DNA from: Fusobacteriaceae bacterium
GTDB taxonomy: Bacteria > Fusobacteriota > Fusobacteriia > Fusobacteriales > Fusobacteriaceae
Assembly (NCBI GenBank): GCA_031289425.1
Contig: JAITPM010000114.1
Coordinates: 1 to 43,046, forward strand
Reading direction: 5' to 3'
DNA length: 43,046 nucleotides
A model generated the notes under the pieces. It did no database searches, was not told where the DNA came from, and saw only the letters and a program-made list of their open reading frames with translations. Below, one piece after another: positions 9,250 through 43,046 of this stretch. Both the position numbers and the translations under genes were made by a program. Numbering within the stretch: position 1 is the first letter of the stretch; every line of letters begins with the position of its first letter.

Positions 9250-10020
9250 CTATTTAGATGGTTGATTTTCAAAATCGATCAGCCTTTTTTCAATTTCACC
9301 GGCTATCTTTCTCATTTCTTTTACAACCAATTTTTCATTCTCTTCTGTAAGTTCATCACAAAAAAATGGACAACTAATTGCAGCAATTATTTTATTAGTT
9401 TTACTCAAAATAGGAACAGCGACCGCTTTCAAATTATTGCTATGTTCCATATTATCAAAAGCAATTTTATTTATACTTATTTTTAGAAGCTGTCTTTTCA
9501 ATTCTTCTATATCCGTAATTGTATTTTCGGTATATTTTGGTAATTTTTTATCCAAAAGTTCATCCAATTTGTTATTATCTAATTGGCAAATCAAAAGTTT
9601 GCTCGCAGCACCTGCATGAAGCGGGAAAATAGCATTTTCTGCGACAGATACTTTTACCACATCACTACTTTCTACCGTTGTAATCGTTCTGATTTTATTC
9701 CCATCCAAGACACTCACCTTGAATGTCTCTTTAAATTTTAAGGATAATTTTTCTAAATACGGATAAGATATATTTTTTATTAAATTATATTTCTCATGTT
9801 TATCTGAAAAGAAATAAAATTTTTCACCTAGAGAATATTTTTTATTTTCAAAATACAAATATTTAAGCTCCGTCAATATATGCAAAAGTCTATTTACACT
9901 CGCTCTAGAAATACCAAGGTCTTGAGCGATTTTACTCTGTGATGAATACCCATTATAATGCAAATACATAAAAATTTTGTCAGCTTTCACTATTGCCGGA
10001 ACTTTTTCTCTCATTTTCAT
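9250..10020 (-). CDS. IclR-family transcriptional regulator
   Basis: The protein has an N-terminal winged helix-turn-helix (KADKIFMYLHYNGYSSQSKIAQ, then GISRASVNRLLHILTE) and an IclR effector domain with VAENAIFPLHAGAASKLL and ISCPFFCDELTEENEKLV. An open frame extends upstream to 10047, but the ATG at 10020 (MKMREKVP) has GGAG 9 bases before it and was chosen, giving about 256 residues. It overlaps the end of the orphan ATPase gene by 41 bases, so the two are cotranscribed. It is followed by the TRAP operon in the same direction. IclR proteins sense small acids and usually control neighbouring transport or catabolic operons, so the TRAP operon or the HMG-CoA reductase operon are candidate targets. 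Confidence 0.88.
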   Translation of the reverse strand: MKMREKVPAIVKADKIFMYLHYNGYSSQSKIAQDLGISRASVNRLLHILTELKYLYFENKKYSLGEKFYFFSDKHEKYNLIKNISYPYLEKLSLKFKETFKVSVLDGNKIRTITTVESSDVVKVSVAENAIFPLHAGAASKLLICQLDNNKLDELLDKKLPKYTENTITDIEELKRQLLKISINKIAFDNMEHSNNLKAVAVPILSKTNKIIAAISCPFFCDELTEENEKLVVKEMRKIAGEIEKRLIDFENQPSK

Positions 10021-11140
10021 ATATACTTTCTCCGTTTTCGCAATCAAAATATATAGCTTTGCTTACATTAAAATAGAAATAATTTGAACTTTGCATATCC
10101 TTTACATCAACTCTACAAACTAGGTCGAATCCATCTATTTTGAAATGTTTGTACAGCTGATCTCCAAGGTTTTCGACTATATCAATGGCTCCTTCAAAGG
10201 TATTTCTATTTTCAACAGGATATTTGAGATTTTCAATATCTTCTGCTCTTATTCCCAGAATAACATTTTTTTCATAATAATTTGTTATTTTTAATAATTT
10301 TTCTTTTTCTAATATTTTGCCTATATATAGCTTCCTGTTATTACCAAACTCAAAAACTATTTCTCTTTCTCCTGTTATTTTTCCTTTAATAAAATTCATA
10401 GGGAAATTTCCTATAAATCCACCTACAAAAATATTTTTTGGATTATTATATAGATTTGCCGGCGTATCAAATTGCTCTATTTTCCCATTGTTTAAAAGGC
10501 AAATTCTATCACCCATAGTCATAGCTTCCAGTTGGTCATGAGTCACATATATAATAGTTGCATTTTTATTTGATTCTTTTAATTCTTTGTGTAATTTTAA
10601 TATCTCAAGGCGCATCGAAGCTCTGAGTCTGGCATCAAGATTTGATAGTGGTTCATCAAACAAAAATACCAAAGGTTCTCTGATTATTACTTTTCCCAAG
10701 GCAACCCTTTGCCTTTGCCCACCTGACATATCTTTTGGTTTTCTATCTAAAATTTCTGTTATTTTTAACTTTTGAGCTATATCTAAAATTTTATCTTTTA
10801 AATTTTTTTTATTTATTTTATTATTTTTATCTATTTTTAAATTAAATCCTATATTTTCATATGCGTTCATATGTGGATACAAGGTATAGTTTTGAAATAC
10901 CATAGATACATTTCTGTCTTTGGGAGATAAATTAACTACATTTTTTTCATCAAAGAAAATTTCTCCTGAAGTTATCTCCTCCAAACCTGATATTATCCTC
11001 AAGATAGTAGATTTCCCACTTCCTGATGGTCCCACCAATACGACAAATTCAGAGTCCTTTATTTCCAGATTTAGGTCATCTATAGCCACGCATCCATTGG
11101 GATATTTTTTTTTTATATTTTTTAAAGTTATATTTGCCAT
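9980..11140 (-). CDS. Orphan ABC ATPase, MalK/UgpC/MsmK-like
   Basis: The N-terminal 240 residues form an ABC ATPase with Walker A (GPSGSGKST, about 38-46), Q-loop (MVFQNYTLYPHM), signature MSGGQRQR, Walker B (VFLFDEPLSNLDARLR) and switch His (IYVTHDQLEAMT). A C-terminal TOBE/OB regulatory region follows (VILGIRAEDIENL), typical of carbohydrate importers (CUT1). No permease or binding protein of that class is next to it, so it may serve transporters encoded elsewhere, as MsiK/MsmK proteins do. Two adjacent ATG codons exist; the second (11140) is better spaced from GAGGG. It overlaps the IclR gene. The signature starts with M instead of the usual L, a conservative change. Confidence 0.87.
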   Translation of the reverse strand: MANITLKNIKKKYPNGCVAIDDLNLEIKDSEFVVLVGPSGSGKSTILRIISGLEEITSGEIFFDEKNVVNLSPKDRNVSMVFQNYTLYPHMNAYENIGFNLKIDKNNKINKKNLKDKILDIAQKLKITEILDRKPKDMSGGQRQRVALGKVIIREPLVFLFDEPLSNLDARLRASMRLEILKLHKELKESNKNATIIYVTHDQLEAMTMGDRICLLNNGKIEQFDTPANLYNNPKNIFVGGFIGNFPMNFIKGKITGEREIVFEFGNNRKLYIGKILEKEKLLKITNYYEKNVILGIRAEDIENLKYPVENRNTFEGAIDIVENLGDQLYKHFKIDGFDLVCRVDVKDMQSSNYFYFNVSKAIYFDCENGESIYENERKSSGNSES

Positions 11141-11211
11141 CATACCCTCTTTTATTTTTTCATTTTTTTTAGTATATCATATTTTTTTAAAAAATATTAG
11201 TAATAAAAAAA

Positions 11212-11229: not shown

Positions 11230-11303
11230 CCGTTTATTCACTATATTCATAATAAATATATTTTAAAACTTTTATTGTTTTAATTTTTATTATTATTTAT
11301 TAA

Positions 11304-11338
11304 AGACTGTCTGAGTAAAATTTTACTTCAGACAGTCT
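11304..11338 (-). terminator. Terminator hairpin of the AtuA-HMGR-TctA operon
   Basis: AGACTGTCTGA (11304-11314) and TCAGACAGTCT (11328-11338) pair perfectly over 11 bp, and inner GTAAAA/TTTTAC pairs extend the stem. It follows the TctA-like stop by about 40 bases. The minus-strand side continues with TTAATA rather than a long T run, so efficiency is uncertain. Confidence 0.7.
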
Positions 11339-11376
11339 ATTTTATTAGTCCTAACAATAAATCTTAAACCAAATTT

Positions 11377-12723
11377 TTAATTTATAAATTTGCACAATGC
11401 AATTACTTGCGTAACAATATACCCAGAGGCATAATATCCCATAAATTGCACTCCTGTATGTATTCCAAATAAATTATTTAAAATTCCACCGAATATTCCT
11501 ACAAATACGGCTACGAATATTCCGAATATACCCGCTTCATAAAATGCAAGCATGCATATTAATCCCATAAAAGCTCCTATTAATGCTTCATGAGAAACAT
11601 ATCGAAACATTGCTTCTGTCCATGAACGAGCTTTTTTGATAGATAGAGGATATGCAAAGAAACATCCACCAACCATTCCGATTATCCCGTATATAAAGTA
11701 TTGAGATATTGATAAATAATCATGCAAATTTATCTGATTGAACAATGGAGACGCCGGACCCAATGCAACCGGGCTTAAGGGAAGTCCAAATGCCACCATG
11801 GGAATCAAAAGTTCCCCAAGATAAGTGGCATTTGAAACTGCATCTTGAACTCCAAGAGTAGCCGTTATCCTATCATATAGTTCTTTCTTGCGGGCAGCTA
11901 TCAATTCTCCCATAAGTACAGTCATTCCAACTGGAGAAAATGTGAAAGTACACGCAGATACTGCAGACGCCCCTGCTATATACCCCACTTGTGATTTTCC
12001 AAAGAAAGAAAATGGGTTTGGAAATATTGAACCCTTAACATTTTTAGATTCCGGTGCAAGCCAAATTACCTTTGGTTTATCTCTTTTTTGCAACTCTCTT
12101 CGCATTGGTATCATGACATTAAATAATTCTGCTATCATAGGTCCTATTGTGATACCCATAAATATAGATATAAATAAAGTTTTCCCTGTAGTCTCCACGG
12201 ATATTCGTTGAAGTCCTTGGATTAAAAATGCAAATGGAAGCAAAGAAATTATGGCACCCCATTTAGCTTTGGAAACATAAGCAATAATAATTGCACCCAA
12301 AGTAAAGATAAGTCCTGAATATGCAGCTACGACTTTACCCAAAGGAGCCAATGCTCCGGCCACGATTATTGCTATCGGGAATGCGATTATAGAGCCTATC
12401 AATGACCCTGCAGCCATTTTTCTCATTGCTATATGAGGAATTCCCAATCTTTTTGCTATATTTGAATTAGCAACCATAGGCACTGCCATAGTCGAACCCG
12501 GTAATGCTGCCATAGCAGTTGGTACAGTATGTGTGATTTGCATAGCAATCAAAATAGCTATAAACCATGCGAATACAACAGTTGGAGGCACTCCTATCAA
12601 GACAAGTACTAGAGTAAGAGGCGCCATAGTAGCAGTCTCATCTGTTCCAGGTATAACTCCAATTATGGAAAATATAATTCCGCCCACGAGAGAAATTGCA
12701 ATAGCTAGTAATATAGTACTCAT
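11377..12723 (-). CDS. TctA-like permease of the HMG-CoA reductase operon
   Basis: This 448-residue integral membrane protein has about 10-12 hydrophobic segments. IFSIIGVIPGTDETATMAPL at residues 17-36 corresponds to the PG motif region of tripartite tricarboxylate transporter large subunits. PTAMAALPGSTMAVPM and GAFMGLICMLAFYEAGIFG are also TctA-like. It is shorter than classical TctA proteins (about 500 residues). Its start lies 3 bases after the stop of the preceding small membrane protein, with AAGGAGG inside that gene. No TctC binding protein is encoded nearby, so it either works without one or borrows one. From context it should import the operon's substrate, possibly mevalonate or another hydroxy acid; this is inference. 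Confidence 0.78.
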   Translation of the reverse strand: MSTILLAIAISLVGGIIFSIIGVIPGTDETATMAPLTLVLVLIGVPPTVVFAWFIAILIAMQITHTVPTAMAALPGSTMAVPMVANSNIAKRLGIPHIAMRKMAAGSLIGSIIAFPIAIIVAGALAPLGKVVAAYSGLIFTLGAIIIAYVSKAKWGAIISLLPFAFLIQGLQRISVETTGKTLFISIFMGITIGPMIAELFNVMIPMRRELQKRDKPKVIWLAPESKNVKGSIFPNPFSFFGKSQVGYIAGASAVSACTFTFSPVGMTVLMGELIAARKKELYDRITATLGVQDAVSNATYLGELLIPMVAFGLPLSPVALGPASPLFNQINLHDYLSISQYFIYGIIGMVGGCFFAYPLSIKKARSWTEAMFRYVSHEALIGAFMGLICMLAFYEAGIFGIFVAVFVGIFGGILNNLFGIHTGVQFMGYYASGYIVTQVIALCKFIN

Positions 12724-12726
12724 AAT

Positions 12727-13218
12727 TTAAACCTCCTTTTTTATATTTTTTTCTATGATATTTTCTTTATCAAGTTCCTTGTATTCTGCTTTATAATTTG
12801 GTGAATCCTCAGGAATCAAAGCCAAAAGAGAATATAATCCCACATCTTCCATTTCTTTTATGATACCCGGATCAAGAGTAGCGAGAGCTTCTATCTCATC
12901 CTCTATAGTCATTCCCGCATCATGAAGAATTTCTTCAAGACTTGCAGGATCCGCCTTTTCTTCTATGATACGCTTTGGTTTAAAACATTTGGCAGAAATA
13001 ACTGCTGCTACAAAACATCCCAAGATTCCGACCAACAATGAATACCCATTGGCAAGACTCTTTTCAATAGTGCCAATTGAATTAAAAATAACCCTTCCTA
13101 TCAAATAAAAAGCCATTGTTAATACAATTCCGATTATAGTAGAAAATATTAATTCTTTTAGACTAACCGTGTCTCCCCATACCTCTGTCAATTGTTGCTT
13201 ATTTTCATTTTTGTCCAT
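12727..13218 (-). CDS. Small membrane protein, possible TctB-like partner
   Basis: This 163-residue protein is not recognised as a known family. It has a short polar N-terminus, two predicted membrane helices (about 23-46, LIFSTIIGIVLTMAFYLIG, and about 58-82, GYSLLVGILGCFVAAVISAK), then an 80-residue acidic soluble tail with a predicted helical segment (DPASLEEILHDAGMTIEDE). Classical TctB proteins have four helices, so this is at most a divergent small subunit. Its position directly before the TctA-like gene, with 3 bp between, and 9 bp after the HMG-CoA reductase gene argues for a transport partner. The basic KPKR after helix 2 favours a cytoplasmic tail. Confidence 0.7.
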   Translation of the reverse strand: MDKNENKQQLTEVWGDTVSLKELIFSTIIGIVLTMAFYLIGRVIFNSIGTIEKSLANGYSLLVGILGCFVAAVISAKCFKPKRIIEEKADPASLEEILHDAGMTIEDEIEALATLDPGIIKEMEDVGLYSLLALIPEDSPNYKAEYKELDKENIIEKNIKKEV

Positions 13219-13227
13219 ACTTTCCTC

Positions 13228-14514
13228 CTATTTAGAATTAAGTCGATCAAATATTTCTTTCGCATATATTGCATTTATATTTTTATCAGTAATCATTTGC
13301 GCTACAATTTTTTCTAAAAGTTCTCCGGTAGCACCAACAGATGCAGCTATATTTCTAGCATGCAATTTCATATGCCCCCTTTGAATTCCATCAGTAGCAA
13401 GGGCTTTTATTGCTGCAAGATTTTGCGCAAGTCCCAGTGCTGCATATATTTGAGCCAATTCACTTGCTGATTGAACTCCCAATATTTTTACAGCGGCTTT
13501 AGCTCCTGGATGTATTTTTGTCGCTCCTCCGACTAATCCCACTGCCATCGGTAATTCTATTGTTCCTACAAGATTTCCATCAAAATCTTTTTCCCATGTG
13601 CTTAATGTAGTATATCGTCCTGAGATGGCTGCATAAGCATGTGCTCCCGATTCTATTGCTCTTGTATCATTTCCTGTGGCTAATACAGCGGCGCTGATTC
13701 CATTCATTATTCCCTTATTATGTGTAGCCGCACGATATGGGTCTGCCGCTGCAAAGGCATATGCATCCAAAATTTTTTCTACAACCTTTGCGCCATCCTC
13801 TGGATCGCCCGTTTTACTTAAGACTTCTTTTTTATAAACTGCTCTTGCCCTTGCCAATCTATAGACTGCGAGATTGGATAGTATACGCAAATCTACCTTA
13901 CAACCTGTTTTTTCTTCTATTAACGGAGATACTGCTTCTGCCATAGAATTTACTGCATTGGCACCCATTGCATCTCCAACATTTACCAGTAGATGTATGA
14001 TTACCATTTTCCCTCTGGATGTATCAATTACACGCACATCCAAATCGTGGAATCCACCACCAAATTTTACAAGAATAGGGTCTTTTGCATTACATATTTC
14101 TTTTATTTTGTCTTTATTTTCAAGAATTATATTTTTTACATAATTGGGGTCAGGTACATTCACTACTTGTACTTGAGCAATCATAATTGACCCGGTAAAA
14201 GATGTTGTAAATCCTCCTGCCACTCTAGCCATTTTAGCAGAATTGGATGCAGCTGCTACGACAGAAGCTTCTTCTGTGACCATAGGAATCAAGACGTCTC
14301 TTCCGTTTATTTTAAAATTAAGTGCTACTCCCATAGGTAGTGAATATGTTCCTATTACATTTTCAATCATATGATCCGCCAAATCATTGGTCAAACTCCC
14401 TGCCTCAGAAATGGCCTTTACATCTTCGGGTGAGATGTCTGTAAGTTCTGCGATTTTTTTTACTCTTTCTAACTGTGATAACTTATAAAAACCTGAAATA
14501 TCACTATTATTCAT
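13228..14514 (-). CDS. mvaA: Hydroxymethylglutaryl-CoA reductase, class II (degradative type)
   Basis: The enzyme interconverts mevalonate plus CoA and HMG-CoA with NAD(P)(H). At 428 residues it has the length of the Pseudomonas mevalonii enzyme. Visible motifs are ENVIGTYSLPMGVALNF (51-67), EEASVVAAAS (81-90, catalytic Glu region), VGDAMGANAVNSMAEAV (179-195), HNKGIMNGI with Lys267, GNDTRA with Asp283 and GHMKLHARN with His381. Those last three positions match the catalytic Lys, Asp and His of the degradative enzyme as I recall the numbering. It starts with ATG after AGGAGG. The neighbours (AtuA pair, permease, sigma-54 promoter) and the absence of other mevalonate-pathway kinases favour the oxidative, catabolic direction. 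Confidence 0.93.
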   Translation of the reverse strand: MNNSDISGFYKLSQLERVKKIAELTDISPEDVKAISEAGSLTNDLADHMIENVIGTYSLPMGVALNFKINGRDVLIPMVTEEASVVAAASNSAKMARVAGGFTTSFTGSIMIAQVQVVNVPDPNYVKNIILENKDKIKEICNAKDPILVKFGGGFHDLDVRVIDTSRGKMVIIHLLVNVGDAMGANAVNSMAEAVSPLIEEKTGCKVDLRILSNLAVYRLARARAVYKKEVLSKTGDPEDGAKVVEKILDAYAFAAADPYRAATHNKGIMNGISAAVLATGNDTRAIESGAHAYAAISGRYTTLSTWEKDFDGNLVGTIELPMAVGLVGGATKIHPGAKAAVKILGVQSASELAQIYAALGLAQNLAAIKALATDGIQRGHMKLHARNIAASVGATGELLEKIVAQMITDKNINAIYAKEIFDRLNSK

Positions 14515-14597: not shown

Positions 14598-14639
14598 ATT
14601 TATCCGTATCTATTTTTATTATTCATCTGTATCTATTTT
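14598..14639. repeat. Tandem duplication at the end of the AtuA-like small gene
   Basis: ATTTATCCGTATCTATTTT (14598-14616) and ATTCATCTGTATCTATTTT (14621-14639) are direct repeats 23 bases apart with two mismatches. The second encodes the last codons (KIDTDE and stop) on the minus strand; the first is non-coding beyond the stop. The remaining gap to the HMG-CoA reductase gene shows nothing else. Confidence 0.6.
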
Positions 14640-14939
14640 CATTCTCATAAATGCAGAACCCATCGATTTTCCCAATGAATCAAGCCTCAAAGAATGTGTC
14701 GCCCCACCACCTAGAGCATGCTTCATAACAAAATTAAATCCATGTAATGTCTCTACTTCATAGCGGATTATTTCTCCCTTTACCATATCTCCAAAATATT
14801 TTTTTACCCTATCTACAGTCAAGATCCGTTTCAAAAACTCATAATCTTTGGGATTTCTTGCAAATACACACACATTGCTCGTATCGCCCTTATCTCCCGA
14901 GCGTCCATGAGCCAAAGTATTTAGATATACTATTGACAT
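14619..14939 (-). CDS. AtuA-like small protein (ferredoxin-fold domain of the AtuA system)
   Basis: This 106-residue soluble protein begins with VYLNTLAHGRSGDKGDTSNV, the hallmark of the small AtuA-associated domain (HGRSGDKGD with GDKGD probably a binding loop). It continues to FVMKHALGGGATHSLRLDSLGKS. In many bacteria this domain is fused to the C-terminus of AtuA; here it is a separate gene beginning one base after the AtuA stop codon, with GGAGGTG inside the AtuA gene. The two products almost certainly act as one enzyme. The reaction is not established; related genes belong to acyclic terpene and branched-acid breakdown. Confidence 0.82.
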   Translation of the reverse strand: MSIVYLNTLAHGRSGDKGDTSNVCVFARNPKDYEFLKRILTVDRVKKYFGDMVKGEIIRYEVETLHGFNFVMKHALGGGATHSLRLDSLGKSMGSAFMRMKIDTDE

Positions 14940-14940
14940 G

Positions 14941-16308
14941 TTATTTCACCTCCAAAACGTGTGATGTCAGCTTTACTTCATCTCTATCTATCAAAGTAGG
15001 CCATAGACCTATGACATCTTGAATAGGTGAACGTCCTCCAAAAAACGATGCTCCAGGGGGGCCATTAAGTTGAAGAGGTGAAATTTCAGGAATCAACTTC
15101 ATAGCCTCTGATTTTTCCTTGACCCTGATAGCTATTCTTAAAACTACCTCATTTATTTTCTTTATAAGGTCTTCGTCGATTTCTGCAACATTTAGATGCA
15201 GTGCATTCAATCCGAGGTAATCTATTCGTATATCTTCGCATTGTAGTCCCTTTCTCTTCATTTTTTTCATAATGATTTCGGCAGTATATTGAGCCTTTTC
15301 ATAGGCATCAGGCCATGCGAATGATAAATATGTAGCCACTTTATACCCTGCATGATATCCTATACACATTTTTAATTTATCCGGCTTCTTTTTGCCCTTT
15401 ATACCTCCCACTCTGACATAATCGTCTCCTTCTTGTTTAAGCGTAGCCTGTGATATGTCTACTGTAACATCAGGAGTAATATAATTGGCAGGGTCATGTA
15501 CTTCATATAGAAATTGCTCTTTTATAGATTGTTCGGAAATCAACCCTCCACAATTTGGAGCTTTGGTAATATGCAAGTCATTTTCTGTCACCTCTGCGAT
15601 GGGAAATCCCAAATTGTCCATATTCGGAACAGATCTCCAATCATATTGGAAATTTCCTCCGGCACCTTGTCCGCCACATTCCAACAAATGGCCTACCATT
15701 ATTCCTCTGGCCAAATCATCCAAATCATTTTCTTTCCATCCGAATTCATGAGCTAATGGAGCCAAAAACAACGCCGAATCTGTAGCACGACCGGTTATGA
15801 CTATATCTGCATTCTCTTTTAAACAATCCATAATAGGTTCTCTTCCGTAGTATACATTTACATTGACAATTTTATCCTTTATCTCATCAAAATCACCGAT
15901 ATCATCCATATTTGGGAAAGTCATTCCATTTTTGATTAATTTAGGTAATTGTAGAAGCATATCATCTCCGGTAACATAACCAATCTTATACCCTGACATT
16001 TTTTGATTTTCAGCTATTTTTTTTACTTCATTTATTGCTCCCTGTATATTCATTCCTCCTGCATTGGATAATATACAAATTTTTTTGTTGTAAGCTTCTT
16101 TCCCTATTTCTTCGATAAGATTGATGAAATCTCTTGCAAATCCACTTTGAGGGTTTTTTAATTTTTGTCTTTGCATAATAGAAAGAGTCAATTCAGCCAA
16201 ATAATCACAAGACATATAATTCAAATTCCCCTCATGAATCATATGAACTGCGGCATCCTGACTATCTCCCCAAAATCCTTGACCACCACCAATACGAATA
16301 GTTTTCAT
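14941..16308 (-). CDS. AtuA-family protein (DUF1446), large component
   Basis: This 455-residue cytoplasmic protein is of the acyclic terpene utilisation AtuA family. It starts KTIRIGGGQGFWGDSQDAA, a glycine-rich strand-loop seen throughout the family. It contains ILSNAGGMN, GRATDSALFLAPLAHEFGW, HLLECGGQGAGGNF and, near the end, LQLNGPPGASFFGGR. It is the first gene of the sigma-54-controlled operon, with an AAGGAGG RBS and a leader of about 90 bases. In Pseudomonas AtuA belongs to the citronellol/geranyl-CoA route, which handles 3-hydroxy-3-branched glutaryl-CoA compounds chemically akin to HMG-CoA. Next to HMG-CoA reductase and without an HMG-CoA lyase gene, it could act on HMG-CoA; this is a hypothesis. 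Confidence 0.88.
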   Translation of the reverse strand: MKTIRIGGGQGFWGDSQDAAVHMIHEGNLNYMSCDYLAELTLSIMQRQKLKNPQSGFARDFINLIEEIGKEAYNKKICILSNAGGMNIQGAINEVKKIAENQKMSGYKIGYVTGDDMLLQLPKLIKNGMTFPNMDDIGDFDEIKDKIVNVNVYYGREPIMDCLKENADIVITGRATDSALFLAPLAHEFGWKENDLDDLARGIMVGHLLECGGQGAGGNFQYDWRSVPNMDNLGFPIAEVTENDLHITKAPNCGGLISEQSIKEQFLYEVHDPANYITPDVTVDISQATLKQEGDDYVRVGGIKGKKKPDKLKMCIGYHAGYKVATYLSFAWPDAYEKAQYTAEIIMKKMKRKGLQCEDIRIDYLGLNALHLNVAEIDEDLIKKINEVVLRIAIRVKEKSEAMKLIPEISPLQLNGPPGASFFGGRSPIQDVIGLWPTLIDRDEVKLTSHVLEVK

Positions 16309-16410: not shown

Positions 16411-16425
16411 GCAAATTTCGTTCCA
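16411..16425 (-). promoter_or_regulatory. Sigma-54 (-24/-12) promoter of the AtuA-HMGR operon
   Basis: On the minus strand the sequence TGGAACG-AAAT-TTGC fits the consensus TGGCACG-N4-TTGC with one change, keeping the invariant GG and GC doublets at the right spacing. Transcription would begin near 16399, about 90 bases before the AtuA start codon. The sigma-54 activator is the next gene upstream, which makes this assignment strong. Confidence 0.85.
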
Positions 16426-16581: not shown

Positions 16582-18150
16582 TTATGGCATAATTTCTAAT
16601 TCCTTACAACGACGATAAAAAGTTCTTTTACTGAGACCTAACACTTTTATTGTTTTTTCCTTATTTCCATTTTGTTGCTTCAAGGTCTCTTGTATTAATA
16701 ACTTTTCATAATCCTTCAATGCATCCTTTAATGGTTTGTCAGAAAAATAAAATGTTTCGCTTATTATCGATTTTTCTGTAATCAAAGATTTTAAGCCATC
16801 CGATATTGTCTGATATAATGCTTCGATTCCCAATATAGCAACCCTTTCGATACAATTTTGTAATTGCCTTATATTTCCCGGCCAATCGTAACTCATCATA
16901 TCTTCATATTCCTTGGATGTTATCATCAACTTACTTTTGTAACGTTCTTTATATATTTCAAAAAAATGATTTGCAAGAAGTGGAATATCATCCTTCCGTT
17001 CACGTAATGGCGGTATATTTAAAGAGATAACATTTAATCTGAAAAACAAATCCTCTCGAAATTTGTTTTCTTTCATCAGCTCTTCCAATGGTTTATTAGT
17101 AGCAGCTATCACCCGCACGTCTACCGATAATGCGTGCGAACTACCAATTTTTTCGATTTCACCTTGTTGCAATACTCTGAGTAATTTTGCTTGCATAGAT
17201 AATGGCAAATCTCCGATTTCATCCAAAAAAATAGTTCCCTTATCCGCCAATTGAAATTTACCAATTTTTCCGCCCTTATTTGCTCCTGTAAAAGCCCCTT
17301 CCTCATATCCAAATAATTCACTTTCAAATAAATTTTCAGGGATTGCTGCACAATTTACAGTTATAAGTGGATTATTTTTTCTATTACTACCGGAATGTAA
17401 CAATTTTGCAAGGACTTCCTTTCCTACTCCACTCTCTCCTCTTATCAATACTGTCACATCAGTTTTGGCAGCAATATTAGCTACTTCAAGGACATTAATA
17501 AACTTAGAATTTTGTGTGATTATCCCTAGGTTTTTAAAGGCCTCATGATAATCCAATTTTTGTGCCACTTCAGCAATTACCCCTGTCATACGCTGCACTT
17601 CTTGGTTCATAGTATTTAGTTCTGTAATATCCTTAAAAATAGATACGGCACCAATAAAATCCCCTCTATAAAATTGAGGGATTATTTGCAGGGAAACATA
17701 TTTATTTACAGATGCAATCAATTGCTTTTGTTTGGAGATTGGTCTTTTATTCCGCAATACTTTATTTAATAATGCACCTGATTCTATCTTTTGGATATAT
17801 TTACCTATTATTTTATAAAGCGGAATCCCAAGAATATACGAATAGGCTTTATTTAAATAATATATTCTTCCGCTCGCATCTATAGCTACGATGCCCTCTT
17901 CGATATAATCTAACATATCTTCAAATATTTTATTTCTATTCTGTTTTACCAAATAAATTAAATCTCTACTATCTATTTCACCTATAGAAGAGGAGTTTTC
18001 ATCTAAAATTGTTATCATGGATTCTTTACGATTTAGTGTATCCGGATTCAATTCAGATATATTTAAATTACCATTTAATGTAAATGCATTCATTGGAGTA
18101 TTTTTTTGAGGACGAACAAGTTCTTTAATTTTCATTGTTATCTTATTCAC
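16582..18150 (-). CDS. Sigma-54-dependent transcriptional activator with PAS domain
   Basis: This 522-residue bacterial enhancer-binding protein has a PAS sensor domain (about 75-180, IDASGRIYYLNKAYSYILG), a AAA+ domain with Walker A GESGVGKE (238-245), the sigma-54-contacting GAFTGA loop (285-290), Walker B TIFLDE (306-311) and REDLFFRLNV with arginine fingers (365-374). A C-terminal Fis-type helix-turn-helix ends in GLSKRTFYRRCKELE. There is no receiver domain, so the signal is probably a ligand of the PAS or N-terminal region. It starts with GTG in a 4-base GTGA overlap with the ruvA stop and is translationally coupled to it. Its product should bind the paired palindromes downstream and drive the AtuA-HMGR operon. 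Confidence 0.93.
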   Translation of the reverse strand: MNKITMKIKELVRPQKNTPMNAFTLNGNLNISELNPDTLNRKESMITILDENSSSIGEIDSRDLIYLVKQNRNKIFEDMLDYIEEGIVAIDASGRIYYLNKAYSYILGIPLYKIIGKYIQKIESGALLNKVLRNKRPISKQKQLIASVNKYVSLQIIPQFYRGDFIGAVSIFKDITELNTMNQEVQRMTGVIAEVAQKLDYHEAFKNLGIITQNSKFINVLEVANIAAKTDVTVLIRGESGVGKEVLAKLLHSGSNRKNNPLITVNCAAIPENLFESELFGYEEGAFTGANKGGKIGKFQLADKGTIFLDEIGDLPLSMQAKLLRVLQQGEIEKIGSSHALSVDVRVIAATNKPLEELMKENKFREDLFFRLNVISLNIPPLRERKDDIPLLANHFFEIYKERYKSKLMITSKEYEDMMSYDWPGNIRQLQNCIERVAILGIEALYQTISDGLKSLITEKSIISETFYFSDKPLKDALKDYEKLLIQETLKQQNGNKEKTIKVLGLSKRTFYRRCKELEIMP

Positions 18151-38149: not shown

Positions 38150-38905
38150 TTATTTTTTATTTGAACGAGTCCTTCCCGTATCGTCGTCTTCCTCATTAAC
38201 AATTAAATCTTTCTCATCAAATAAAACTTTTTTCTCTAATTTTCCATCCTTATCATATATTGATACTTCTTCCTCTACCTTGTCTTTTTTCCAATTTACC
38301 GTTGCCTTTAATTGACCATTTTTATGAAAATATCTCCCAAGTCCGTGTTTAACATCATTTTTATAAGTTACTTCACTCATCAAAACCCCATTATCATAAA
38401 TTTTTTTTAATGTACCATTTATTTTATCATTTTTATAAAATATTCTACTTATAATGTTACCATTTTTATTATATACTATAGCTTCTCCATTTTTTTTATC
38501 TTTTTTATATGGAATTTCTGATTGTATTACTCCATTTTCGTAATAATCACTTACGATTCCATCCAAAACTCCATTTTTATAAGTAACATTTTTTTTCAAT
38601 TTCCCATTTCTATAGTATAATTTGGATAATCCTTCTTTTTTACCTTTTTCGTACCACAATTCTTTTTCAAGTCGTTTATTTTCATAATAACTCTTGAATT
38701 GACCATTTGGAATACCTTTTAAAAAAGTTCCTTCTGTTTCCATTTTACCATTTTCATAAAATCCTTTGATTTTTCCTGTAAATGGTTTATTGGATGATTT
38801 TTCATAAAAGACTCCTTTTTTTTCTATAATATTAGATCTATCTATTTCTGTTGAATATGTAAATACAGATATTATAAATAAAAATAGAATCAGAATTTTT
38901 TTCAT
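38150..38905 (-). CDS. Exported YwqK/MORN_2 repeat protein 1
   Basis: This 251-residue protein has a Sec signal peptide (MKKILILFLFIISVFTYS) followed by about eight units of roughly 22-23 residues. Their core is YYENG-x-x-x-x-E-x-x-x-K-x-x-x-x-G (e.g. GFYENGKMETEGTFLKG, YYRNGKLKKNVTYKNG), the MORN variant seen in YwqK-type antitoxin components. The tail is acidic then basic (NEEDDDTGRTRSNKK). It is the last of three tandem paralogues. The secretion signal argues against an intracellular antitoxin role; a surface or periplasmic scaffold is as likely. Fusobacteria carry many such genes. Confidence 0.85.
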   Translation of the reverse strand: MKKILILFLFIISVFTYSTEIDRSNIIEKKGVFYEKSSNKPFTGKIKGFYENGKMETEGTFLKGIPNGQFKSYYENKRLEKELWYEKGKKEGLSKLYYRNGKLKKNVTYKNGVLDGIVSDYYENGVIQSEIPYKKDKKNGEAIVYNKNGNIISRIFYKNDKINGTLKKIYDNGVLMSEVTYKNDVKHGLGRYFHKNGQLKATVNWKKDKVEEEVSIYDKDGKLEKKVLFDEKDLIVNEEDDDTGRTRSNKK

Positions 38906-38952
38906 AATCTCACCTATTTAAACTAGTTATTTATTTTGAAAATATAAAACAA

Positions 38953-39876
38953 TTAATTATTTATAACAGGAACATCATCCTTAAATTCATTACTTGATAA
39001 AACTTTCCCATCATCACTATACTCTACTGCTTTCCCATTTAATTGGTCGTTTATAAAAGTACACTCTACTTTTATTTTCCCGTTTTTGTGATATTCCTTC
39101 ATTACGCCTTCTCTAAGATCATCCTTAAAAGTCGCTTCTAACCATAATTTACCGTCGTCATAATATTGTTTGAACGTACTATTTTTTTTATTGTTTTCAA
39201 AATTAACTTCCCCAAGCAAATTACCATTTTCATAATATTCTTTATAAAGACCATCTTTAGCATCATTCTTATAATTAGTTTCAATGGAAACTTTGCCATT
39301 TTTGTGATATTCTACTCCCTTACCATTTCTCATATCTTTAGAATAAGCATATTCAGATTTTTTCTTCCCATCTTCATAATATTTTATTTCCAACCCTTCT
39401 ACCATATCATTTACATAAGCAAATTCACTTTTTAATTTACCATTTTCATAATATTCTCTATAAGGGCCACTTAATTTTTCACCATCTACATTACTTTCTC
39501 TTAATATCATTCCATTTGAATAATATTCTTTTATTACACATTTATTCCCATCATATTCTTCCAACATTTGTATAGTACTATTCTCATAGTAATGTTTCCA
39601 CGTACCAATTTTTTTATCGTTTTCAAAATTTCCCTCAGATCGCAATTTACCATTTGTATAGTATCCCTTTGATATACCCGACATTTTTCCATCTTTGAAT
39701 GACACTTCTGTCCTAATATTTCCATCTTTGTAATAACCTTTAGCTATTCCTGTAAATGGAACATTTTTTGTTGTATTATACCAAACATTGTCTTTTTTTT
39801 CCAATTTTGACGAGTCTATAGTAGTGGCTAGCACCCCTAAACTTACTATCATCAATATCCCTAAAATCTTTTTCAT
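38953..39876 (-). CDS. Exported YwqK/MORN_2 repeat protein 2
   Basis: With 307 residues this is the longest of the three paralogues. It has a signal peptide (MKKILGILMIVSLGVLATTID) and about 11 repeats such as YYENGKLKSEFAYVNDMVEG and YYEDGKKKSEYAYSKDMRNG. Unit length is about 23 residues. A free Cys appears in two units (EEYDGNKCVIKEYYS and IKVECTFIND). It shares the N-terminal pattern signal-SSKLEKKDNVWYN-PFTGIAKGYYKDG with repeat protein 1, showing that the genes arose by duplication. The start is ATG after GGAGG. Confidence 0.85.
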   Translation of the reverse strand: MKKILGILMIVSLGVLATTIDSSKLEKKDNVWYNTTKNVPFTGIAKGYYKDGNIRTEVSFKDGKMSGISKGYYTNGKLRSEGNFENDKKIGTWKHYYENSTIQMLEEYDGNKCVIKEYYSNGMILRESNVDGEKLSGPYREYYENGKLKSEFAYVNDMVEGLEIKYYEDGKKKSEYAYSKDMRNGKGVEYHKNGKVSIETNYKNDAKDGLYKEYYENGNLLGEVNFENNKKNSTFKQYYDDGKLWLEATFKDDLREGVMKEYHKNGKIKVECTFINDQLNGKAVEYSDDGKVLSSNEFKDDVPVINN

Positions 39877-39935
39877 TTATTTTTTCCTCCAGACTAGTAT
39901 TTATCTCTTAATTTTTTTTATTTTTTATTTTTTTC

Positions 39936-40721
39936 TCATTTTTTCTTTACATTTTTAGTATTATTCTTTTTTGTATCTTCTTTTTTTGGAGTTTTAGCAT
40001 TCGTATTTACTTTTTTAACTATATCCGTTTTTTCCTCTATTTTGTCCAATTCACCTAGAGAAATTTCTTTATCTGGTTTATTGCTCGTTTTTAAACTTTG
40101 GAATCCTCCGGCAGAAGATTTTTCTCTCCCATCTTCATAGTATTGTTTCCCTTTTCCATTGGCTTTCCCAGCTACATAAGTTATTTCCGAAGCCAATTTT
40201 CCATTTTTATAGTATCTTTTTATAATTCCATTCAATTTATCAGCACTATAATTGAGCTCCGATTCCAATTTTCCATCTTTATTATAATTTTTTTCAGAGC
40301 CTGTTCTTTTGTCATTTTGATATGTCGTTATAGATTGTAATTTTCCATTTTCATAATAAGTTTTCGAAATCCCATTTTTTTTGCCGGCTTTATATGTCCT
40401 CTCAGCTTTCACATTTCCATTTTGAAAGAATTCCTTTATAGGTCCGTCTACAATTCCATTTGTATAATAAATCTCACCTTGTGTTTTCCCATTCTCATAA
40501 TAAGTCCTTGTGAGGCCGTCAAATTTTCCCTTTTCAAAATGTAAGTCAGCTTTTAATTTTCCATTATTATAATAATCTTTTGCTAATCCTGTAAAAAGGT
40601 TTTGAGTATTTTCATAATATGTAAGTCCATCATCCCTTGCTTCTAGTTCAGATATTTTAACAGCAGTTGCCAAAAGAACACTAGACAATAGAACAACTAT
40701 CAAAACAATTAATTTTTTCAT
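39936..40721 (-). CDS. Exported YwqK/MORN_2 repeat protein 3
   Basis: This 261-residue first gene of the tandem array has a signal peptide (MKKLIVLIVVLLSSVLLAT), then about seven repeats (YYENGKTQGEIYYTNGIVDG, FFQNGNVKAERTYKAGKKNG). It then has a different C-terminal third that is Lys/Thr/Asn-rich and repeat-free (from about residue 205, ending in KNNTKNVKKK). That tail is absent from the other two. It starts with ATG after GGGAG and has a good promoter, so it may drive all three genes; gaps between them are about 47-59 bp. Confidence 0.85.
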   Translation of the reverse strand: MKKLIVLIVVLLSSVLLATAVKISELEARDDGLTYYENTQNLFTGLAKDYYNNGKLKADLHFEKGKFDGLTRTYYENGKTQGEIYYTNGIVDGPIKEFFQNGNVKAERTYKAGKKNGISKTYYENGKLQSITTYQNDKRTGSEKNYNKDGKLESELNYSADKLNGIIKRYYKNGKLASEITYVAGKANGKGKQYYEDGREKSSAGGFQSLKTSNKPDKEISLGELDKIEEKTDIVKKVNTNAKTPKKEDTKKNNTKNVKKK

Positions 40722-42654: not shown

Positions 42655-43046
42655 TTAATCATGCTGATTAGCTAAATTTTCTCTCTCTCTTTTTTCTATC
42701 TTTCTTTGGTTGATTACGGAACTTACCAAAGACCCTATAGCAAGTACTGTCAATATCACACATATAGGTCTTGTAAATAATAAATAGAATTTTCCGTTAT
42801 CTATTTGCATCATACGTCTTAGATTACTTTCAGACATTGGCCCTAATATAAGTGCCAACAATATTGGAGAAAGTGGAAATTCATATTTTTGCATCAAATA
42901 TCCTACCATACCCATTGCGATAGCCAATCCTGCATCAAACATATTTCCATTTATAGAATAAGACCCTACTAATGACAATACCAATATTACAGGTAGTAAT
43001 TTTTTCTTATCTATAGATATTACCTTAGCAAACAATCTTATTCCGG
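42655..43046 (-). CDS. C-terminal part of a tripartite tricarboxylate transporter TctA permease
   Basis: The frame is open to the right edge, so the gene continues beyond the window; the apparent start at 43035 is a TTG and probably internal. The visible 126-130 residues hold four hydrophobic segments. They contain FPLSPILLALILGPMSESNLRRMM followed by FYLLFTRPICVILTVL, the conserved C-terminal pattern of TctA proteins (FP-x-x-P-x-x-L-x-x-ILG, then E-x-x-x-RR and an RP pair). A charged tail (NQRKIEKRERENLANQ) ends it. It differs from the TctA-like permease of the HMG-CoA reductase operon, so the genome has at least two. Confidence 0.85.
   Translation of the reverse strand, partial: GIRLFAKVISIDKKKLLPVILVLSLVGSYSINGNMFDAGLAIAMGMVGYLMQKYEFPLSPILLALILGPMSESNLRRMMQIDNGKFYLLFTRPICVILTVLAIGSLVSSVINQRKIEKRERENLANQHD

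Follow-up and report, generated by a model that had tools for sequence, protein, structure and literature searches.

The window analyzed here, a stretch of 43,046 nucleotides from a Fusobacteriaceae bacterium (GCA_031289425.1, contig JAITPM010000114.1), carries on its minus strand an operon-like order of genes that runs from an activator through two AtuA-type genes, an HMG-CoA reductase, a 163-aa protein and a permease to a terminator-like hairpin. The features are as follows.

16582-18150, minus strand: PAS/sigma-54 activator, probable regulator of the operon (PF00158, 234 bits)
16411-16425, minus strand: possible sigma-54 (-24/-12) promoter in the gap before the AtuA gene, one mismatch to TGGCACN6TGC
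14941-16308, minus strand: AtuA family protein, same operon (PF07287, 437.5 bits)
14619-14939, minus strand: AtuA ferredoxin-like domain protein, same operon (PF23544, 102 bits)
13228-14514, minus strand: HMG-CoA reductase, degradative type (TIGR00532, 496.6 bits; cut-off, 259.95)
12727-13218, minus strand: small membrane subunit of 163 aa, with an N-terminal EVWGDTV hairpin, two membrane helices, FKPKR and an acidic tail
11377-12723, minus strand: TctA-like permease of 448 aa, large subunit (Pfam PF01970, 71.1 bits; cut-off, 28.9)
11304-11337, minus strand: terminator-like hairpin 3' of the permease (-19.7 kcal/mol; z of -6.67 for 11295-11345)

The open reading frames of the permease and its small partner are separated by 3 bases. 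The hairpin likely marks the end of the operon, and the activator probably regulates it, with activator homologues found upstream of the pair in 9 of the 80 loci examined among relatives (best 80 of 239). The sigma-54-like site is only suggestive as the operon promoter, given 58 such sites in the window against 44.9 expected, a number little above chance. Just downstream of the pair, a gene for a MalK-like ABC ATPase (9980-11143) overlaps that of an IclR-type regulator (9250-10047), with no adjoining ABC permease. Farther along the window, three MORN_2 repeat proteins are encoded in succession on the minus strand (38150-40721), and a C-terminal piece of a canonical TctA is cut by the contig end at the right edge (42856-43041).

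The large subunit had been described as short in the initial annotation, and at 448 aa it indeed falls below the 493-532 aa of canonical TctA proteins (n = 11); its score against Pfam TctA is likewise far below the 455 bits of the highest-scoring canonical TctA in that genome. When the window permease was aligned with 32 of the 80 listed relatives (alignment A2), TctA was the single Pfam family matched by all 33 permeases (E ≤ 0.001). Like the TctA subunits of tripartite tricarboxylate transporter (TTT) systems, the window permease matches PF01970 over nearly its full length and has a PG motif at the end of its first helix, whereas the GTDET that follows this PG region, invariant across A2, sets its family apart. 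The strict G-x3-G-x3-G-x2-PG motif, expected in duplicate (TM1 and TM7) in TTT systems, is absent from the window permease and also from 2 of the 11 canonical TctA proteins, and occurs twice in only 1 of the 11. We then built a tree of 48 rows from the 33 permeases of A2, 4 permeases with tail-less partners (see below) and the 11 canonical TctA proteins, in which the canonical set formed one side of a branch with support of 100/100. Midpoint rooting divided this branch into halves of 3.61 and 4.86 changes per column (approximately 8.5 in total), with little information on the position of the root. A profile of the permease family aligned with the 11 canonical TctA proteins over 369 columns at a probability of only 59. 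The AlphaFold2 model of the permease was all-helical (pLDDT, 82.8; pTM, 0.84) and gave no Foldseek match at E ≤ 0.001, and no solved chain was related in sequence to the permease or its partner at E values up to 1; neither result speaks for or against a new fold. Altogether, the tree places the permease in its own clade apart from canonical TctA (n = 11).

Hydropathy analysis of the 163-aa partner located two hydrophobic helices (residues 23-41 and 61-79), and its AlphaFold2 model (mean pLDDT, 88) comprised an N-terminal hairpin (10-19), helices at 20-47 and 53-78, and a helical C-terminal part (94-162). Exactly 80 residues, 22 acidic and 8 basic, follow the PKR motif, in agreement with the two-helix protein and 80-residue acidic tail noted at first; because PKR comes after helix 2, this tail is presumably cytoplasmic. 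A net acidic tail and the W-x-D motif were present in all 81 tailed partners (the window and 80 loci), the longest tail possibly reflecting an effect of ORF calling. In an alignment of 30 diverse rows (A3; 2 tail-less and 28 tailed partners, with five of the 33 rows of alignment A1 left out), W, D, G, F, P, K and R were invariant, and these residues lay in the hairpin, the membrane helices and PKR, with none in the tail. A scan of the window partner against Pfam and NCBIfam placed no family over its cut-off, and the same scan of the 30 A3 members gave scattered weak matches only, with no PF07331 (TctB) match listed for any of them or for the window partner. DUF3792 (matching 6 of 30 members, best 8e-5; window, 15.6 bits against a cut-off of 31.3) and TIGR04086 (5 of 30, best 1e-4; window, 18.4 bits against a cut-off of 30) were rejected as generic membrane-helix similarity. 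Searches with the partner model by Foldseek and VIA-align 2 returned nothing convincing, the best hits (Z, 7.4) being generic helical hairpins, a result uninformative on new folds.

To place the pair in its genomic context, we searched genome contigs for relatives of the window permease and analyzed the best 80 of the 239 found, a selection that possibly missed distant members in other settings. The partner adjoined the permease in all 80 loci, with a median gap of -1 base, and this recurrence is therefore not due to chance. Within the same 80, HMG-CoA reductase was encoded in 79, always on the same strand (78 upstream, 1 downstream; more than 3 kb away in 8), and 62 loci had a homologue of HMG-CoA lyase; of the lyase homologues sampled, 10/10 matched the NCBIfam lyase model, 8/10 over its cut-off. 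In a collection of 72,556 plasmids, separate searches with the permease and the partner returned the identical 6 records, compared to 812 for one canonical TctA of the same genome (tblastn, E of 0.001). The 4 of these 6 loci that were inspected all carried, in this order, HMG-CoA reductase, a "hypothetical protein" and a "tripartite tricarboxylate transporter permease," and all had an HMG-CoA lyase. The partner profile was also run against 398 genomes from the phylum of the L012 genome, giving 4 matches, one of which (G250; 26.6 bits within an 809-residue frame) was judged spurious and dropped. The other three partner genomes, one of them the genome on which the sample was centered, all belonged to the 7 that exceeded the TIGR00532 cut-off, with the genes together; when the center genome was left out, 2/2 partner genomes fell among the 6 reductase genomes of 397, approximately 2 in 10,000 by chance by simple arithmetic. 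As judged by eye, three of the other four reductases (L154, L156 and L157) looked biosynthetic, with HMG-CoA synthase or lower-pathway genes nearby, and the fourth (L155) gave no clear assignment.

Mevalonate degradation in Pseudomonas mevalonii is encoded by mvaA (HMG-CoA reductase) and mvaB (lyase), and the same two enzymes stand beside the pair in most loci; our literature search found no transporter gene for this type of pathway. In the window, no HMG-CoA lyase is encoded beside the reductase, and the AtuA and AtuA ferredoxin-like genes (14619-16308) occupy its usual place, as they do in L015 and in the same-genus locus L158; their products may act on HMG-CoA or on a product thereof.

The window operon contains a TIGR00532-type reductase, as expected for a degradative HMG-CoA reductase locus, and the best solved relative of this enzyme is 1qax (E, 4.9e-139), which we take to be the P. 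mevalonii HMG-CoA reductase. Because the window genome encodes IspG and gave no match to HMG-CoA synthase, the enzyme does not belong to a mevalonate biosynthesis route. The cofactor helix was compared to the motifs given in the portion of PMC13370337 consulted, Dx(V/L)xxxL for NADH and (H/Y)xSxxxR for NADPH. The corresponding stretch of the window reductase, DPILVKF, strictly shares with the NADH motif only the initial Asp, the other two positions being Ile and Phe, whereas YPSIVKR in the G085 and L156 reductases conforms to the NADPH motif. Across the 79 reductases of the best 80 of 239 loci, Asp was found at this initial position in 64, no pattern match in 10, and a match elsewhere in 5.

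The pair was also found next to the lower mevalonate pathway. Among 98 genomes of the window's phylum, the partner occurred in three: the window genome, G085 and G086. In the latter two it is a tail-less protein of 83 aa; tyrS (by eye) precedes the pair, and immediately after the pair come genes for mevalonate kinase, diphosphomevalonate decarboxylase and phosphomevalonate kinase (identified in G086), with type 2 isopentenyl isomerase also next in the G085 row; the corresponding gene row of G084, from the same genus, lacks the pair. Because G085 and G086 also encode HMG-CoA synthase and reductase elsewhere in the genome, import by the pair would not be required there and export is possible; neither genome gave an IspG match. 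Another setting is provided by G098, the genome of L016 and the only locus without HMG-CoA reductase among the best 80 of 239. HMG-CoA reductase, HMG-CoA synthase and IspG all went unmatched across its whole genome, and mevalonate kinase (275.7 bits), a diphosphomevalonate decarboxylase and a third GHMP kinase are encoded in a row on a contig other than that of the pair. Because the lower pathway is present and synthase, reductase and IspG gave no match, G098 must, if its assembly is near complete, build its isoprenoids from outside mevalonate, and it is likely a mevalonate-dependent bacterium. The pair therefore accompanies mevalonate kinase in three genomes, as the next gene in two and in the third without any HMG-CoA reductase. 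A separate subclass tied to HMG-CoA reductase loci, as the initial annotation proposed, is upheld by the separate clade, the small subunit of its own, the lack of TctC and the 79 of 80 loci (best 80 of 239), but the tie itself proved too narrow in view of these three genomes.

Different carriers were observed at the same operon position in related genomes. In G051, of the window's genus, a row of activator, AtuA, AtuA ferredoxin-like protein and HMG-CoA reductase (named by likeness to the window genes) continues with MaoC and an enoyl-CoA hydratase-like protein, after which a sodium:solute symporter (PF00474, 186.6 bits) takes the place of the pair, and in G026, of the same family, a GntP-type permease (PF02447, 43.4 bits) lies between HMG-CoA reductase and an HMG-CoA lyase homologue. 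Because various carriers occupy one slot, these arrangements fit a transporter role for the pair. Two gene rows in the window's genus were also noted. In L158 (5046-9139), the genes after HMG-CoA reductase encode MaoC and an enoyl-CoA hydratase-like protein, then a sodium:solute symporter and a type III CoA-transferase, which hints that HMG-CoA may be processed by a different route; in L159 (8265-11464; G052), a beta-keto acid cleavage enzyme and a protein resembling ketopantoate reductase are encoded next to HMG-CoA reductase.

We propose, with a probability of approximately 0.74, that the pair is a two-subunit secondary importer of mevalonate without a dedicated binding protein. Mevalonate is the likely substrate in this genomic context because it is the metabolite common to the HMG-CoA reductase and mevalonate kinase settings. 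The TctA-like permease would carry out translocation, presumably powered by an ion gradient, and the small protein would be its obligatory partner, which would dock onto the permease through the W-G-D hairpin, the helical hairpin and F-x-PKR, the acidic cytoplasmic domain being an optional addition for stability or regulation. In the window, imported mevalonate would be oxidized to HMG-CoA by the degradative HMG-CoA reductase and then degraded further; elsewhere among bacteria, the pair would supply mevalonate kinase for isoprenoid synthesis. That the pair instead carries another acid, such as 3-hydroxy-3-methylglutarate, acetoacetate or mevalonolactone, or acts as an exporter, we consider unlikely: the substrate is read from neighboring genes, the AtuA-type genes of the window could process other branched acids, and G085 and G086 can make mevalonate for export, but it is mevalonate that the two settings share, and G098 has the pair with no match to the enzymes that would make mevalonate from HMG-CoA or supply HMG-CoA.

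The distribution of the tail bears on what the partner does. Tail-less partners occur with HMG-CoA reductase in L152 and L153 and with mevalonate kinase in L096 and L097, and the permeases of these four form one group (96/85); tailed partners are found in HMG-CoA reductase loci and also in G098, which lacks the reductase. The suggestion that the tail binds an enzyme of the operon is thus not favored, and the tail was rejected as a docking site for HMG-CoA reductase because the two do not co-occur consistently; gating and stability are possible roles. The stand-alone TctA proteins of archaea (arCOG04469), reported in excerpts of PMC5812351 and PMC5898192, also lack TctC, and their existence makes it conceivable that the permease acts alone, with the partner as a regulator or enzyme-docking protein. 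This arrangement is nevertheless improbable, since the partner adjoins the permease in every one of the best 80 of 239 loci as well as in the four tail-less cases, its invariant residues lie outside the tail, and the tail does not track HMG-CoA reductase. The presence of a dedicated small partner also distinguishes the window permease from the archaeal proteins, as far as the published descriptions in these excerpts go.

By contrast with the TctC and small subunit found at 10/10 canonical plasmid TctA loci, neither TctC nor TctB is encoded in the window operon. The absence of TctC from the locus, already remarked on in the initial annotation, was borne out: the three TctC and three TctB matches of the window genome all belong to three separate TctC-TctB-TctA loci, which lie outside the window contig. 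Scanning the frames of the 80 loci with a profile built on 13 TctC proteins (flanks of at most 8 kb, cut short by contig ends) detected TctC in the flanks of 2 of the best 80 of 239, in neither case within the operon of the pair (4.5 kb beyond the permease in L028; on the opposite strand with its own TctB in L082). As described in PMC5812351, a TTT system consists of a 12-helix TctA, a 4-helix TctB and TctC; TctA proteins occur in archaea without the other subunits (mostly stand-alone, according to an excerpt of PMC5898192), and for rare bacterial orphan TctA proteins either action free of binding proteins or service by foreign ones is suggested. The partner resembles TctB (PF07331) in its small size, its membrane location and a gene position immediately ahead of the permease, but it has two helices and a presumed cytoplasmic domain instead of four to five helices, and comparison of its family profile with 13 TctB proteins gave a probability of 6.6 over 26 columns, versus 99.2 (E, 1.8e-19) over 149 columns between two halves of the TctB set as a positive control. 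The partner is not, by this profile comparison, a recognizable TctB, and the proposed subclass stands. The pair could be served by a binding protein whose gene lies elsewhere; yet an ordinary TTT system, with a diverged TctB and TctC supplied from another locus, is the least probable reading, in spite of a permease above the Pfam TctA cut-off, the TctC proteins of the genome and the foreign binding proteins envisaged in the cited part of PMC5812351, given the helix count and profile of the partner, the commitment of all three TctC proteins to their own loci and the rarity of TctC near the pair. Because two defining parts of a TTT system, TctB and TctC, were looked for and not found, the pair should not be filed as one.

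The two-subunit mevalonate importer proposed here may have a wider meaning. We lean, by a modest degree, toward an unnamed and widespread class of two-subunit mevalonate importers that dispense with a binding protein and have small subunits of a new family. This class would be present in at least Bacillota, Pseudomonadota, Actinomycetota, Synergistota and the window's phylum, and some bacteria, such as isolate COT-073 (L016), would have lost both de novo routes to isoprenoid precursors and live on imported mevalonate. Mevalonate uptake by Pseudomonas has reportedly been observed, as has a mevalonate-binding TRAP protein. Mevalonate import systems are stated to exist in several bacteria, with no system named, in an excerpt of PMC12405511, which also describes a yeast carrier evolved into a mevalonate importer for isoprenoid engineering, and in PMC3819652 a metabolic model led to the proposal that Blattabacterium imports mevalonate. 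The titles and abstract openings retrieved on mevalonate transport and catabolism named no bacterial mevalonate transporter gene of this kind, and those retrieved included no paper on the permease-partner pair. If the proposal is true, genes could be assigned to the uptake of mevalonate by bacteria, a TctA-type permease would be seen to function with another kind of small subunit and free of binding proteins, and the common annotation of the pair as a "tripartite tricarboxylate transporter permease" and a "hypothetical protein" would be corrected. It would also point to bacteria that depend on the mevalonate of others, and isoprenoid engineering would gain an importer of natural origin. Most likely, the pair brings in mevalonate as food or, in some species, as a source for essential lipids.
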